Assembly (NCBI GenBank): GCA_003213715.1
Contig: QCMN01000003.1
Coordinates: forward strand, 1-64,000
Direction: 5' to 3'
Origin: Pelagibacteraceae bacterium AG-422-B15
Lineage (GTDB): Bacteria > Pseudomonadota > Alphaproteobacteria > Pelagibacterales > AG-422-B15
DNA length: 64,000 bases
Every line of letters starts with the position of its first letter. The first letter of the stretch is position 1. Below, in pieces: positions 2,611-20,073 of the stretch. Position numbers and translations under genes: made by a program. The notes beneath the pieces were generated by a model. That model ran no database searches and had not been told where the DNA came from. It worked only from the letters and a program-made list of their open reading frames with translations.

Positions 2611-5003
2611 ATGAACATGATTCAAACAATTAAATTATTTGCCTACGTAGGAATCATTCTCTCTTTTGTAATATTTGGAATAATTTTATATTTTATATTT
2701 CAATTGCCAGACGACTCAAGTTTGCAGAATTACAAACCAAATGTAATGAGCAGAATTCATGCGTCAAACGGTGATCTTGTAAAGGAATTTTCAAAAGAAT
2801 ACCGGATCTTTATTCCAATAAAAGATATCCCTGATGATTTAAAGAATGCATTTATTTCTGCAGAAGATAAAAATTTTTATAGACATTACGGAGTTGACCC
2901 AGTTGGAATCATGCGTGCTTTGGTCAAAAATATTATCAATCTTTTTAATGAAAAAAGGCCGGAGGGCGCATCAACAATTACTCAACAGGTTGCTAAAAAT
3001 TTTCTTTTATCTGACGAATTGAGCATAAATCGAAAAATTAAAGAAGGTCTTCTTGCGCTAAAAATTGAACAAACATTACCAAAAGAAAGAATTTTAGAAC
3101 TCTATTTAAATCAAATTTATCTAGGATCTGGAACCTATGGTATTGCTGCAGCATCAAATAGATACTTTAAAAAATCTCTGAGCGAACTTGATATTCATGA
3201 AATGGCTTTTCTGGCGGCACTCCCTAAGGCACCTAGCAGATATAATCCTGAAAGAAATTATGATATGGCATTTGAACGAAGAAACTGGGTGCTCGAAAGA
3301 ATGTTTGTGAACGGGTATATTGATAAGTATGAATTAAATTCGTTAAAAAAAATCCCTATTAATACCTATTTAAAAGAAAACAACAGAGTCTTTGCAAATG
3401 ATTATTATCTTGAGGAAATTAGAAAAAAAATAATTTTAATTTTTGGTGAAGATTATTTATATAATGGGGGATTGTCAGTCAGATCATCTCTGAATACTGA
3501 AATTCAAATTATTGCCGATAATGCTTTGAAGAAAGGGCTGCTTCAGTATGATAAGAGGCATGGCTTTCGTGGACCAATAGCTAATGATATAAGCAATAAT
3601 TGGCACTTAAAATATAAAAAAAATAATCTTCCTCATAATTTTTTAATTGCAAAAATCACTAAATTTAATGAAAAAAATAATAATGCTCAAGTTGAAGTTG
3701 TTTTAAAAGATGAAAAAATTAACGCAGAACTTGTTAATTTTAAATGGGCAAGAACCAGTCTCCCAGGCGGTTATTTAGGACCTAAAATTAACAAGGCAAG
3801 TGATATTCTACAATTGAACGATATTATTTACGTTTCAAGTGATAGTCAGCAAAGTTACAGCTTAGAGCAAATTCCAAAAATTAATGGAGGCATTATTATA
3901 ATGGACCCTTATACAGGAAGAGTTTTTGCTTTATCGGGCGGATTTGATTTCAATAAATCTAATTTCAACAGAGCCATACAAGCCAAGCGACAACCTGGTT
4001 CATCATTTAAGCCATTTGTTTATATGTCTGCTTTAGAAAACGGATTACAGCCCAATAGTTTGATTTTGGACGCCCCTTTTGTTGTTGATCAGGGTTCAGA
4101 CTTAGGTAAATGGAAACCTGAAAATTATGGTAAGAAATTTTATGGGCCTTCAACTTTAAGGAAAGGAATAGAAAATTCTAGGAATTTAATGACAATAAGA
4201 ATAGCTCAATATTTGGGAATGGAAAAGGTTGCAGAAATTGCAAACAGGACAGGGATAATGGAGAATATGCCTAACGTTCTTTCGATGGCTCTTGGCGCAG
4301 GAGAAACTTCCCTTATTGATCTTACTGCGGCCTATGCTTCTTTTGTAAATGGAGGAAAGAAAGTAGAACCAAGTCTTATTGATAGAATTCAAGACAGAAG
4401 AGGTAAGAATATTTTTTTAGAAAATTTTGCAGCATGTACTAATTGTGACGAGCCGTACATTGAGGAAAATCCGATGCCAAAACTTGTTAATTCATCCGAA
4501 AGCATATTTGATGAAGCTAAATCCTATCAAATGGTCTCTATTTTAAAAGGAGCTGTTGATAGGGGCACTGGAAGAAAAACAAAAATTGATGGAATAGAAA
4601 TAGCCGGTAAAACTGGGACAACAAATAATAATACAGATGCTTGGTTTATTGGATTTACCTCAGATTTAATTATCGGTGTATATGCAGGGTTTGATAAACC
4701 TAAATCACTTGGCAAAAGAGAAACAGGATCATCAGTTGCCGTGCCAATTTTTCGTGATTTGTAAAAAATTATTACCAAGAAAAGCCAATTTTACCTTTCA
4801 CTATTCCTAATGGAATTGAGTTAATTAAAATCAATTATGATACAGGAGAAATAGCAAGCAATTTTAATAGCAGTGAAAGTGTCTATGAAGCATTCAGTAA
4901 AAGTGATAATCTTGTAAGTAGTGGTGAAATTCTTGTTGGTTCTGAGGGCTTCCAAATAATTGAGGTTGCTGATGAAGTTATGGAGGAGTATGTAATTTAT
5001 TAG
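2611..5003 (+). CDS. mrcA: Penicillin-binding protein 1A; ORF ends at 4764 but the true C-terminus continues in another frame to TAG 5001-5003
   Basis: 717-aa ORF with GT51 (EDKNFYRHYGVDPVGI, EGASTITQQVAKN) and transpeptidase (GSSFKPF, KTGTTNN) motifs. Adding one T at 4758-4760 gives ...VPIFRDFVKNYYQEKPILPFTIPNGIELIKINYDTGEIA...EVMEEYVIY*. Confidence 0.9.
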
Positions 5004-5005
5004 TT

Positions 5006-6092
5006 ATGGAAAATGATTTTTTAAATTTATTAGCTAAAGCAAATAAAAAACTTGATTTTGTACGGAGTCATCTTTGACTTAGAAAATTTACAAAAGCAAT
5101 TATTTAAATTAAAAGTTCTAAGTGAAGAAGAAAATTTTTGGTCAGACAATGAAAAGGCCAAAAAAGTAATGGTCGAAATAAGTGAATTAGACCAAAACAT
5201 CAAACTAATTTCTGATTTTGAAAAGAAAATAACTGAAGTTAAGGATTATTTTAATCTTGCAAATGAAGAAAATGATCAATTGATGATCAGCGAGTGTAAT
5301 AACACGCTTAAAGAACTTTTAAGCGACTTAGAGAAGTCTGAGTTTCAAATGCAATTTAACGGTGAAGCTGATTCGAATAGTTGTTATTTGGAAATACATG
5401 CTGGAGCCGGAGGAACTGAAAGTCAAGATTGGGCGCAAATGTTACAAAGAATGTACATGCGCTGGTCAGAAAGAAAAAAATTTCAATTCAAAATAATGTA
5501 TGAGTCATTTGGTGAAGAGGCAGGTATCAAATCATGTACAGTTTTAGTAGAGGGCAAATATGCATTTGGATATTTAAAAAGAGAGTCTGGTATCCATCGA
5601 TTGGTAAGAATTTCACCATTCGATTCAAATTCAAGAAGGCACACTAGTTTTTCATCAGTATGGATATCACCATATGTTGACGAAACTATAGAAATTAATC
5701 TTCAAGAAAAAGATATGAGAATAGATACTTTCAGAGCCTCTGGTGCAGGAGGTCAACACGTAAATACGACCGATAGCGCGATAAGAATTACACATATTCC
5801 AACGGGCATAGTTGTTCAATGTCAAAATGAACGATCCCAACATAAAAATAAGGCAACAGCTATCAATCTTCTTAAATCAAAATTATATGAAATGGAAATG
5901 CAAAAAATTGAATCTGAAAAAAAAGCTTCTGAGGATAAAAAATCTGATATTGGCTGGGGTAATCAAATAAGGTCGTATGTTTTGCATCCATATAGGATGG
6001 TGAAGGACCTAAGAAGTGATTATGAAGATAGTGATCCAGATGCGGTCTTAGACGGTGATATTGATAAATTAATTTTTTCAAACATAAAATAA
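5006..6092 (+). CDS. prfB: Peptide chain release factor 2, with programmed +1 frameshift at 5072-5078
   Basis: ATG 5006 reads MENDFLNLLAKANKKLDFVRSHL then TGA (5075-5077) in the context CGGAGTCATCTTTGAC. The +1 frame continues DLENLQKQLFK... with GGQHVN and the RF2 core. Confidence 0.95.
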
Positions 6093-6095
6093 AGT

Positions 6096-8639
6096 ATGAG
6101 TAAGAATAAAAAAATATTTATTTATATAACTATATCAATATCAGCATTGATCTTTCTACTTATTTCATTTGTTTCAATCAAAGCGTCATTTGGAGGATTA
6201 AACCTTAATATCTTTGGAGAAAGAATATCAGATGAACTGAAACTAAATTATTCTTTTGATACAGATGTGGAAAATATTGTTCTTAAAAGATCCAGTGAAA
6301 AGGGATTTTATTTAGAAATAGAAAAAATTCAAATTAGTGACGCAAATGGTTTGGTATTAGAGACAAGTTTAATTAGTTGGGACTTTAATTTATTTAATCT
6401 TATTACATTTTCGATAGATGAAAAAAATAAAATTACATCTGAAAAAATAAATATATCTAGTAATAATTTTCAAATTTTCATCAATAACTTTAATATGGAA
6501 TATGATGAGCTTGATAAAGTAGTTGTTTCTCTAAAAAAAATTGATTTTAAGTCAAAGCATTATGCTCTCAATTTTGAGTCATTCGATAACAATATCTTAA
6601 TTCATACAAATTCTATTCTTGAAATTTTTGACTCTAAGAGTTTAATGTCAGCAAATCTCAAAATTAATAAACAAAATTTTCAAACAAATTTTGAATTTAT
6701 TCCAGCTAATCAGCAAATAAATATTTTAAAATTTAGTGGAGACTATTTTTACATTAATGAAACAAGTATTATACAATACAACACTAAGTACAAAAATATT
6801 AAAACTAAACTTGATATTAATTCAAAAAAAGATTCATTAATAAATATTCTTAATTTAAATAATGAAAGTCAAATATATCCATTTATAAATAGTTTTAAAG
6901 GCTGGCAATCTATTTTGCTTGAGACAAACTTTAATTATGAGGAAAGTAATATAATAAATTCTGCGATCAGAAATTTATATCTCAATATATCTGGGATCTA
7001 TGAATTAAATACATTAATGCCAAATGATAAATTTTATCAAAACTTCGGTGATGTAACAAAATACGATTTAGATTTTTATAATGATAAAGAGAAATATGTG
7101 ATCGATATAAATCACTTTAAAAATGATCAATTAATTCTCAAAAAGGGTAGTTTTTTTAAGTTAAATTACGACCTAAACAATGCAAATATTAATTTGGTAA
7201 CGAGTATTCACAAAGATGCTGCAATAAACTATTTGCAAAATACTATTCTATCACGTGAGACTAGAACTGATCGTGTAAGCAATTTTCTTCAACAAAATTT
7301 AAATGAGAATAATGATATAACGCTAAATTTTAATATTGATCCGACTTCAAATAATATAATCAAGTCTCTTAAAAATTTATATGTTGCTTCTTCTGGAGAA
7401 TTAAACACAAACTTTATTTTTGATGATAATGAAAATCCTAATTTTATATCAGGTCCTGTAAATTATTATATTGAAATTGAAAATTTAGAAACTCCAAACC
7501 CCTTATTTAAGGGACTAATAAATTTATCAGATACAACAGCCTTTATAAGACAAATTAATTTAAACAAAAATAATGAGACAAGTTTGAAAATTGAATTTGA
7601 AGGTGATACAAATACACTCAATGATAGTATAATTACATTTGACTCACTTGATAGTAAAATTGATTTTAATGGAAAAGTCAAAATAACTAAAACTAATCAT
7701 ATTTTTTTAGAAGATTTTTCAATTAATAATAATTCAAATGTTAAGTTAAATCTCTCAGGAGATTTATCAGAGCGTATCTTAAATTTAAATATTAGCGGCG
7801 ATATCATTGATCTGTCTGCAAATAAAGTTGAAACAAAGAAAAAAGAAAGAGTTTATTATTTAAAAAGGGAAAATTATTCGATAAATACTGAGGAAGTAAT
7901 TTTTGCTGGAGCGGTAAGAGTAAATGATTTTAAGGCAGGAATTGAGAAACAAGGCTCAACTTTATCTGTAAATAGCCGTGCGTCCTTTATGGGGCAAGAA
8001 CTAAATTATTCAAGGGAAAAAAACGATAACATTGATGTCAATATTATTAATTCAAGCGATATCACATATTTTGTAAACGGTAACCACGCAGCAAAAAAAC
8101 TGCTAAGTGATGGGGAATTTAAAATGACATCAATAAGAAATTTAAATACTCAAGAAGCTGATGTAAAAATAAACTTAAATGACTTTGTGTTGATAAATAC
8201 ACCAGCTTCTCTCAAATTGTTATCTCTTCCTTCAATCTCAGGCCTAGTTAGCATTGCTGAAGGTGAAGAGGGAATTCGCTTTGGGTATGGAGAAATTAAT
8301 TATGTAGAAACAGAAAATAAATTTAATGAAATTGAAGCTTTTGCTGTTAGCGATAGTTTGGGTCTTATTATGGATGGAAATATTGATAGAAAAGAAAAGA
8401 TTATTGATATGAAGGGAGAAATAAGTCCGATGCATCTTGTAAACGCTATTATTCAAAAATTACCTATTTTGGGACCAATAATCGTAGGAAACGAAGGAGA
8501 AGGAATGTTTTCAATAGATTTTTTAATGAAGGGATCTTCTGATGATCCCGAAGTAGAGTCTAATCCACTAACTATAATTAAGCCGAGAATCATAGAAAGA
8601 GCAATAGAAGCTATTGAAAATAGCTCTACTAACCAATAA
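6096..8639 (+). CDS. AsmA/YhdP-like large membrane-anchored protein (DUF3971-type)
   Basis: 847 aa, one N-terminal TM helix, long beta-rich body, C-terminal MKGEISPMHLVNAIIQKLPILGPIIVGNEGEGMFSIDFLMKGSSDDPEVESNPLTIIKP typical of AsmA-like C-termini. Confidence 0.75.
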   Translation: MSKNKKIFIYITISISALIFLLISFVSIKASFGGLNLNIFGERISDELKLNYSFDTDVENIVLKRSSEKGFYLEIEKIQISDANGLVLETSLISWDFNLFNLITFSIDEKNKITSEKINISSNNFQIFINNFNMEYDELDKVVVSLKKIDFKSKHYALNFESFDNNILIHTNSILEIFDSKSLMSANLKINKQNFQTNFEFIPANQQINILKFSGDYFYINETSIIQYNTKYKNIKTKLDINSKKDSLINILNLNNESQIYPFINSFKGWQSILLETNFNYEESNIINSAIRNLYLNISGIYELNTLMPNDKFYQNFGDVTKYDLDFYNDKEKYVIDINHFKNDQLILKKGSFFKLNYDLNNANINLVTSIHKDAAINYLQNTILSRETRTDRVSNFLQQNLNENNDITLNFNIDPTSNNIIKSLKNLYVASSGELNTNFIFDDNENPNFISGPVNYYIEIENLETPNPLFKGLINLSDTTAFIRQINLNKNNETSLKIEFEGDTNTLNDSIITFDSLDSKIDFNGKVKITKTNHIFLEDFSINNNSNVKLNLSGDLSERILNLNISGDIIDLSANKVETKKKERVYYLKRENYSINTEEVIFAGAVRVNDFKAGIEKQGSTLSVNSRASFMGQELNYSREKNDNIDVNIINSSDITYFVNGNHAAKKLLSDGEFKMTSIRNLNTQEADVKINLNDFVLINTPASLKLLSLPSISGLVSIAEGEEGIRFGYGEINYVETENKFNEIEAFAVSDSLGLIMDGNIDRKEKIIDMKGEISPMHLVNAIIQKLPILGPIIVGNEGEGMFSIDFLMKGSSDDPEVESNPLTIIKPRIIERAIEAIENSSTNQ

Positions 8640-18574: not shown

Positions 18575-18650
18575 GAGCCCGTAGCTCAGTTGGTAGAGCA
18601 CTCCCCTTTTAAGGGAGTTGTCCTCGGTTCGAACCCGAGCGGGCTCGCCA
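18575..18650 (+). tRNA. tRNA-Lys (anticodon TTT), CCA encoded
   Basis: GAGCCCG acceptor, GCTCAGTTGGTAGAGC D-arm, CTCCC-CTTTTAA-GGGAG anticodon arm, CTCGGTTCGAACCCGAG T-arm, CGGGCTC-G-CCA. 76 nt. Confidence 0.97.
18606..18646 (+). repeat. attL core (tRNA-Lys anticodon loop to acceptor stem)
   Basis: Identical to 19855-19895 over 41 bp. Confidence 0.88.
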
Positions 18651-18695
18651 CGGTTTTGAACGATTTTCAATTAGTTATTACTTTCGAAACAAACA

Positions 18696-18717
18696 GTGCA
18701 GTCAATGTGCAGTCATT
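18696..18717 (+). repeat. Arm-type-like tandem repeat, left end: GTGCAGTCAAT GTGCAGTCATT
   Basis: Two 11-bp units, 49 bp inside the att core; 19/22 identical to 19765-19786. Confidence 0.7.
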
Positions 18718-18731
18718 AGAACGGTAAAAAC

Positions 18732-19700
18732 TTAATTCATTGCCAACATATTTAGCACCTTAAGCTGAGAATTGATTTCTGCTATTTGAGCTTTCAATAA
18801 ATCATTTTCATTCTGAATCGCTTCATTCTTTGCCATCACTGCATCAATTTTATTCTCTAGTAATAAGTTGTTATCTTTAGCTTCTCTCACTGGTTTTGGA
18901 GCACCGAATTTAAATGTTATGCCAGCTTTAAGAGTTGCGTCGTCGCCTTCGCCGTAAACGACTGATGCAGCTCCTATATTGAATGATGCTTTTTGAAACA
19001 TCTCAGGCATAGAGTCAACAAATGAGTAATTGGCAAAATCAAAACCACATCCACCAGAAATTGCCGATGCACTGTCATGAAATCCAGTTCCAAGTCCACA
19101 CGTATAGCCTGCGCCTTCAGCTCCTGTTGGAAGTGAAGCAAATGCAGCGCCTAATGCAATAGAGCTGTCTATGCTTCCCATTACGTCCTCACCATCTATT
19201 AGTAAATTTGTACCAGATGGAATGTTGATATCAATTCTATTACCAGAGGAATTTGTTGCATATAAATGCTGCCGGCCACCTATTTCTTGTGTAACAAGAG
19301 AGTTTTCTCCAATATGCAAAGCTCCATTACCATCAACTCTCACCATTTTGTTAATAGGTATATTTTGATAAGGTGCTAAGCTATATATTGAACCTCCTGA
19401 TGATCTTATTGCGTCAGACCAACTATCAGAATTAAAGTCATATACCTTAATTTCGGATGTTAGACCTGCTCCTTGATGAATATAGAATTTATTTTCATAT
19501 GCATCAAAATAACTGTTATCTGTTGCTATTCCTTGATCAAGCGTGATCGATGTAACGACTGTTTCTGAGCCACTTGATTGGTCTATTTTAAGTAATTGAT
19601 AAGTATTGCCCTCTGAATTTTTAAACATCAAAAGATTATCTGCAGAGAAAGCAAAGGTTGTTAATAAAAATGAATAAAATAATATTAGAATATATTTCAT
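18732..19700 (-). CDS. Exported protein with YadA-anchor-like region and C-terminal coiled coil (possible surface/adhesin protein); sole cargo of the tRNA-Lys element
   Basis: Signal peptide MKYILILFYSFLLTTFAFSA; SIALGAAFASLPTGAEGAGYTCGLGTGFHDSASAISGGCGFDF...FNIGAASVVYGEGDDATLKAGITFKFG; coiled-coil tail. Confidence 0.65.
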   Translation of the reverse strand: MKYILILFYSFLLTTFAFSADNLLMFKNSEGNTYQLLKIDQSSGSETVVTSITLDQGIATDNSYFDAYENKFYIHQGAGLTSEIKVYDFNSDSWSDAIRSSGGSIYSLAPYQNIPINKMVRVDGNGALHIGENSLVTQEIGGRQHLYATNSSGNRIDINIPSGTNLLIDGEDVMGSIDSSIALGAAFASLPTGAEGAGYTCGLGTGFHDSASAISGGCGFDFANYSFVDSMPEMFQKASFNIGAASVVYGEGDDATLKAGITFKFGAPKPVREAKDNNLLLENKIDAVMAKNEAIQNENDLLKAQIAEINSQLKVLNMLAMN

Positions 19701-19764
19701 ATAGTCTCCTTTAAAAATTATTATTTAATTTTAACAAGTTTAATAAAAAAAAAGATGCCAATTT

Positions 19765-19786
19765 TTGTAGTCAATTTGCAGTCATT
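19765..19786 (+). repeat. Arm-type-like tandem repeat, right end: TTGTAGTCAAT TTGCAGTCATT (a third copy, ATCAGTCATT, at 19797-19806)
   Basis: Same orientation and unit length as the left-end pair; 48-68 bp inside the right att core. Confidence 0.68.
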
Positions 19787-19854
19787 TTTAATGAAAATCA
19801 GTCATTGACTTCTAATTAATTAGAACTAACTGTAGATAATTAACAATCTTGAGG

Positions 19855-19895
19855 CTTTTAAGGGAGTTGTCCTCGGTTCGAACCCGAGCGGGCTC
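19855..19895 (+). repeat. attR core: displaced 3' fragment of tRNA-Lys
   Basis: 41-bp identity to 18606-18646, followed by ACCAC (tRNA copy: GCCAC). Confidence 0.88.
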
Positions 19896-19908
19896 ACCAC
19901 TTAATTAT

Positions 19909-20073
19909 ATGAAAAAAAAATTTTATCACAAGCTTGGCCCAGTACCTACAGAGGAAGATCTCAAAAATCCAAAAAAACTAAATCCAAATAAAGCAAGAAA
20001 CACAGTAATCATATGGTATTCGTTTGTTGCTATTTCTATTATACTTTACTTTGTAGTAACAAAATTGTTCTAA
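19909..20073 (+). CDS. Small single-TM protein
   Basis: MKKKFYHKLGPVPTEEDLKNPKKLNPNKARNTVIIWYSFVAISIILYFVVTKLF; ATG just after the att fragment. The track's upstream start lies inside the tRNA fragment. Confidence 0.6.
   Translation: MKKKFYHKLGPVPTEEDLKNPKKLNPNKARNTVIIWYSFVAISIILYFVVTKLF

Follow-up and report, generated by a model that had tools for sequence, protein, structure and literature searches.

A 1,249-bp unit inserted in the tRNA-Lys gene of Pelagibacteraceae bacterium AG-422-B15 is best interpreted as a non-autonomous integrative cassette which has lost its integrase, retains integrase arm sites and is probably moved in trans. It lies in the window, the 64,000-nucleotide stretch of genomic DNA that was analysed. 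Together with its relatives it exhibits att duplication, empty sites, alternative cargo, tandem stacking and, in most cassettes, arm repeats of a kind that also occurs beside the integrases of autonomous elements.

The 3' part of the tRNA-Lys gene is repeated downstream as a block of 46 nt with a single mismatch, a G to A change at the discriminator base, and the spacing of the two copies is exactly 1,249 bp (Table 1). The original prediction, made from sequence alone, described a 41-bp segment perfectly repeated at this distance with one substantial ORF between the copies. Both claims held, in that the first 41 nt are identical within a full repeat matching at 45/46 positions, and the sole long ORF between the copies, on the minus strand, encodes 322 aa. 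A second pair of repeats inside the ends, TGCAGTCAATGTGCAGTCATT and TGTAGTCAATTTGCAGTCATT, had been overlooked. The first base of the repeated block coincides with that of the 7-nt anticodon loop, CTTTTAA (18606-18612), and the block extends past the CCA; we infer that this loop is the likely crossover region. Within the whole 1.09-Mb genome a 39-nt core of the repeat occurs at two places only.

Table 1. Features of the tRNA-Lys cassette and its boundaries, numbered from the first nucleotide of the window.
Feature	Position	Strand	Basis and remarks
tRNA-Lys(ttt), integration target	18575-18650	+	ARAGORN; 3' half rebuilt by cassette; site empty in 27 relatives
Proximal att core copy	18606-18651	+	45/46 identity to 19855-19900
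Left end module with TTTCGAAA (18682-18689), recurring in other cassettes	18652-18696	+	Left-end comparison
Left arm-type site, GCAGTCA repeated with 11-bp period, TGCAGTCAATGTGCAGTCATT	18697-18717	+	Repeat analysis
Sole cargo gene, 322-aa exported protein	18732-19700	-	Variable N-terminal head, conserved anchor-like half, C-terminal coiled coil; relatives in other cassettes
Right arm-type site, 11-bp period, orientation as left, TGTAGTCAATTTGCAGTCATT	19766-19786	+	Repeat analysis
Right end module, common to tRNA-Lys cassettes of G032	19787-19854	+	Right-end comparison
Distal att copy, displaced original tRNA-Lys 3' half	19855-19900	+	Joined to left flank gives empty site
Host 54-aa ORF, right boundary marker outside cassette	19909-20073	+	tblastn in relatives

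The locus, with the gene order nifU-msrB-sufT-tRNA-Lys, was compared in relatives, and 33 genomes of the genus, including that of the window, show the site. It is empty in 27 of these, where the 54-aa ORF found beyond the distal copy in the window comes immediately after tRNA-Lys, and the joined flanks of the window insertion show 97-99% identity to five of the empty sites. The occupied sites are those of the window, G029, G032, G034, G027 and G036. Between the same att copies, G029 carries three small ORFs and G032 carries two tandem cassettes, each with a relative of the window surface protein. These empty sites and alternative cargoes, together with the lack of an integrase, support the original prediction of a minimal non-autonomous integrative element carrying a surface protein. 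The inserts of G034 and G027 have no distal copy, and the site of G036 lies at a contig end. The G027 insert holds the decayed end of a hydrolase gene that is whole in G034, so that older insertions appear to erode at this site. An assembly duplication was ruled out as the source of the repeat, given that independent assemblies show the same architecture at two tRNAs.

About 20 cassettes were found in relatives within the genus, at tRNA-Lys and tRNA-Met, often in tandem and usually with one gene each, and none of them encodes an integrase. The original prediction considered a one-gene tRNA cassette to be unusual and this has to be corrected, the window unit being one member of a cassette family that is common in the genus. 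At tRNA-Met(cat), G025, G009 and G029 carry relatives of the window protein in units likewise bounded by displaced tRNA 3' halves starting at the anticodon loop; displaced copies were detected in 12 of the 36 genus genomes with this site. The cargo includes a surface-protein family with swapped N-termini, a 4HBT thioesterase (the same cassette in G025, G004 and G042), methyltransferases of FkbM type (G019 and G005) and TylF type, and lipoprotein-like genes. Several arrays consist of two or more cassettes in a row, and the combinations differ between arrays. In G014, tRNA-Met copies only 193 bp apart delimit a 147-bp unit with an arm site and no gene, a minimal form resembling a MITE. A tRNA-Lys cassette close to those of SAR11 was also seen on contig JAAZYG010000051.1, which is binned as 'Uhrbacteria', probably in error.

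The arm-type repeats of the window cassette match with a period of 11 at 8/8 positions on the left and 7/8 on the right (shuffle p < 0.01 for each), and the pattern TGCAGTCAATGTGCAGTCATT / TGTAGTCAATTTGCAGTCATT has two matches in the window against 0.04 expected, with none elsewhere in it. With a core and arm-type repeats at both ends, the cassette meets the attP layout of a tyrosine integrase, although recombination itself was not assayed. Cassette ends were examined for 8-mers repeated with at least 7/8 matches at periods of 6 to 24, with the expectation taken from shuffles. A period of exactly 11 was found in 13 of 20 distinct left ends, compared with 0.1 expected, and every other period in none or one. 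Left repeats are mostly positioned about 45-58 nt past the tRNA and many right repeats about 90 nt ahead of the distal copy, with arm repeats kept at both ends in many cassettes. Their sequence varies among cassettes (GCAGTCATT, GTGCGGGAT, GTCGTCATC and GCAGGCCAT) but often matches between the left and right end of a given cassette. Several cassettes retain, after the left repeat, a sequence resembling the ribosome-binding region of the integrase, AGAAAGGAAAA. No clear arm repeat was present in 7 of the 20 left ends, that of the FkbM cassette among them. The latter, at tRNA-Met in G019 and G005, has no recognisable arm repeats and its gene starts about 20 nt past the tRNA.

Only two tyrosine recombinases, with best matches to XerD and XerC, were found in the window genome, and neither a further tyrosine recombinase nor a resolvase was detected in this assembly, which is 85% complete. 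Most genomes of the genus resemble it in recombinase content, with almost no integrase-bearing partner element, though the majority of the genomes compared are themselves incomplete. A serine recombinase was rejected as helper, a resolvase-family gene being present in only two genus genomes and not in that of the window. In another genus of the same family, G050 carries a 6.6-kb element in tRNA-Lys with the same core as the cassettes. This element is complete, small and satellite-like; besides several small ORFs it encodes a tyrosine integrase of 336 aa, an AAA_25 ATPase of 627 aa and an HTH_17 protein. Its integrase starts just inside the tRNA and is preceded by GACGTCCATATGACGTCC, with a period of 11. 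A related integrase occurs in 18 of 398 genomes of the order, commonly beside a tRNA gene or fragment, and the 60 nt upstream from the integrase start show period 11 in 13 of 20 sequences, period 12 in 5 and other periods in none or one. These 20 sequences include two phage integrases, of PAJU2 and Paku, which lack the period-11 repeat, and the signature is therefore not universal in the integrase family. Because the same period-11 arms adjoin integrase genes, the cassettes can be understood as elements of the autonomous type in which the integrase has been replaced by cargo. The matching arm-site architecture likewise supports, without directly showing, the original prediction that the element is mobilised in trans.

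Candidate helpers were also sought in IMG/VR. Five contigs contain the cassette arm GTGCGGGATNTGTGCGGGA, and all of them have an integrase-like ORF no more than about 200 nt away from it. In two, the arm lies directly upstream from the start of that ORF; these ORFs were identified by eye and not profile-tested. The contigs are mostly GC-rich and are therefore not those of SAR11 phages. No integrase with the window arm GCAGTCATT was found in the 398 genomes of the order or in IMG/VR, within the order the GTGCGGGAT arm matched only cassettes and was never beside an integrase, and the window arm pattern had no match in IMG/VR. A shorter form of the window arm, present in five IMG/VR contigs with no integrase of this family nearby, was treated as a chance occurrence. 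Exact tRNA-Lys and tRNA-Met cores were not found as attP in IMG/VR, and a defence-system library yielded no match to cargo or integrase.

Transfer of the cassettes has been recent and confined to the cassette itself. The FkbM cassettes of G019 and G005 are 98.4% identical and the adjacent core DNA 79.0%, and the thioesterase cassettes of G025 and G042 are 96.7% identical with a core identity of 81.4%. Identity is at the core level directly upstream from the tRNA and at a random level just beyond the distal copy, and this confinement of similarity between the tRNA copies is expected from site-specific transfer and speaks against homologous recombination in the flanks. The thioesterase cassettes of G025 and G004 are nearly identical to that of G042, except in the stretch of 45-57 nt between tRNA-Met and the arm site, where they are unrelated, and it is possible that the left end module has been swapped.

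A search for the surface-protein family across 85,488 species yielded matches in single-cell genomes labelled as Pelagibacteraceae and also in SAR116, SAR86, Prochlorococcus, Synechococcus and a small number of other groups. In SAR86 the gene is flanked by tRNA-Thr repeats; repeats of 11-bp period (GCAAACCATATGCAAACCA) lie close to one end and, in one case, a second cassette adjoins the gene. In SAR116 it is located between repeats of the 5' half of tRNA-Ser, and in AG-891-F06 (3640-5280 and 6880-7080) the units lie upstream from an intact tRNA-Ser, a layout opposite to that of SAR11. In the cyanobacteria the neighbourhood of the gene showed no tRNA boundary.

The cargo protein of the window has a signal-like N-terminus, and across its family the N-terminal head is variable and the C-terminal half, which ends in a coiled coil, is highly conserved. 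A YadA-anchor-like region had been recognised in the original prediction, and this received only weak support: no Pfam model passes for the protein, the family profile matches the YadA anchor structure 2lme at E = 0.2, and two relatives match NCBIfam models of the trimeric autotransporter BimA at up to 5e-5, which is suggestive only. An AlphaFold model of low confidence (pLDDT 67, pTM 0.29) places a helix at residues 173-188, four long strands within 199-263 and a C-terminal helix at 276-321. When this model was used for a fold search only propeller-like matches emerged, at TM ~0.2, too weak to use. The variable head (residues 22-100) is beta-rich and one might speculate, on the basis of the same low-confidence model, that a trimer forms one propeller from the blades of three chains. 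The protein was not found in IMG/VR or annotated phages. Its probable role, which is inferred, is that of a surface head on a conserved anchor, with the cassettes exchanging heads.

We envisage that the ancestors were small tRNA-targeting elements with an integrase gene just inside the tRNA and that cargo took the place of this gene, leaving an attP in which the tRNA-Lys 3' half would form the core and P and P' arm sites would flank the one cargo gene. Another element, be it a phage, a satellite or an island, would provide a tyrosine integrase to bind the 11-bp-period arm repeats, and strand exchange in the anticodon loop would insert or excise the cassette, with a working tRNA always rebuilt. 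Repeated insertion at the restored tRNA would then generate tandem stacks. Mobilisation in trans, the identity of the helper and the crossover position are all inferred, and neither an excised circle nor a junction was seen.

The cassettes might alternatively be dead remnants, that is, larger integrase-bearing islands that have decayed to att copies and one gene, are immobile and are inherited vertically. The absence of an integrase in or near them would fit, as would the same-site inserts of G034 and G027 which lack the distal copy, with a broken gene. We nevertheless regard this as unlikely, since cassettes that are 96.7-98.4% identical occur in genomes with core DNA only 79-81% identical, many cassettes still have arm repeats at both ends, and different cassettes are stacked in different combinations.

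Still less probable is that old insertions now move by homologous recombination, via flanking core DNA or between tRNA copies. Cassettes at one site do have common flanks and tRNA halves, and otherwise identical cassettes (G025 and G042) differ by a swap of the left module, but this reading is countered by the sharp limits of identity at the tRNA and the distal copy, and by the occurrence of the same gene family at different tRNAs and in other classes. The weakest of these alternatives is insertion by the host XerC/XerD rather than by a foreign integrase. These are the only tyrosine recombinases found in the window genome, and the arm-less FkbM cassette would suit an enzyme with no need of arm sites. 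Against it, the targets are the anticodon loops of tRNA-Lys and tRNA-Met and not dif-like sites, and the majority of cassettes have arm repeats such as those that adjoin dedicated integrases, which Xer enzymes are not known to require.

If the preferred reading of a cassette moved in trans is extended, streamlined marine bacteria (SAR11, SAR86 and SAR116) could be drawing on a common pool of cassettes that are attP-only and mostly carry a single gene. The tRNA genes would then act as integron-like docks, and integrases of phages or satellites, present only transiently and differing in arm specificity, would shuffle the cassettes, such that integrase-free genomes still gain and exchange surface and metabolic genes. 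Taken as a whole this broader proposal is tentative, and we judge it slightly more doubtful than probable. Genomes of SAR11 type are highly streamlined and have few integrases, yet they vary in gene content, and an integrase-free tRNA cassette system would help to explain how such bacteria gain single genes. The idea is testable, in that the arm repeats should determine which integrase moves which cassette and the cassettes can be counted in single-cell genomes. Moreover, two tRNA halves combined with 11-bp-period repeats provide a marker for one-gene mobile units that integrase-based searches for islands overlook.

Several known systems share properties with the cassettes. Tycheposons and VEIMEs are likewise tRNA-targeted elements of marine bacteria which employ tyrosine recombinases and carry cargo; the window unit shares the tRNA-associated insertion of tycheposons, but these are described as 4-200 kb in size with a recombinase, whereas the unit is 1.25 kb and has none. 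Integron cassettes and CALINs are also mostly single-gene, integrase-less and tandem, with the enzyme acting in trans, but their boundaries are attC sites and not tRNA halves with arm sites, and a search for an integron integrase in the window genome matched only the Xer proteins. The autonomous relatives of PAJU2 type, such as the G050 element, have the same tRNA-Lys core and the same 11-bp-period layout just inside the tRNA, and their integrase is 32% identical to that of phage PAJU2, which itself lacks the period-11 repeat. They differ from the cassettes in their arm sequences and in the presence of an integrase, which in G050 is accompanied by an HTH protein and an AAA ATPase.

In the mainly open-access literature searched, no account emerged of one-gene units that keep their arm sites, nor of a link between arm sites and helper integrases. 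The nearest known kinds are CIMEs and additive tRNA islands. CIMEs, including the Dehalococcoides ssrA islands without an integration module (PMC3146451), resemble the cassettes in being att-flanked and integrase-less and in accreting in tandem at one RNA gene. The window unit conforms to them in having att copies at a site-specific target and neither integrase nor transfer functions, but there is no adjacent integrase-bearing island for accretion in cis at its locus and, with only Xer recombinases in the genome, action in trans would therefore be needed. The cassettes also differ in carrying mostly one gene, in their size of about 0.2-1.5 kb, in occupying several tRNAs and in retaining arm sites; moreover, they fit a tyrosine system, whereas the ssrA islands employ a serine integrase. 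In the additive flexible genomic island of 'Ca. Methylopumilus', 20-mers of tRNA-Lys delimit units starting from 330 bp and one CDS (PMC10872708). Arm sites, a link to an integrase and transfer are not described there, and the island, which extends to 42 kb, uses another part of tRNA-Lys(ctt), but like the cassettes it belongs to an aquatic bacterium with a streamlined genome and has units bounded by directly repeated copies of a tRNA-Lys end.
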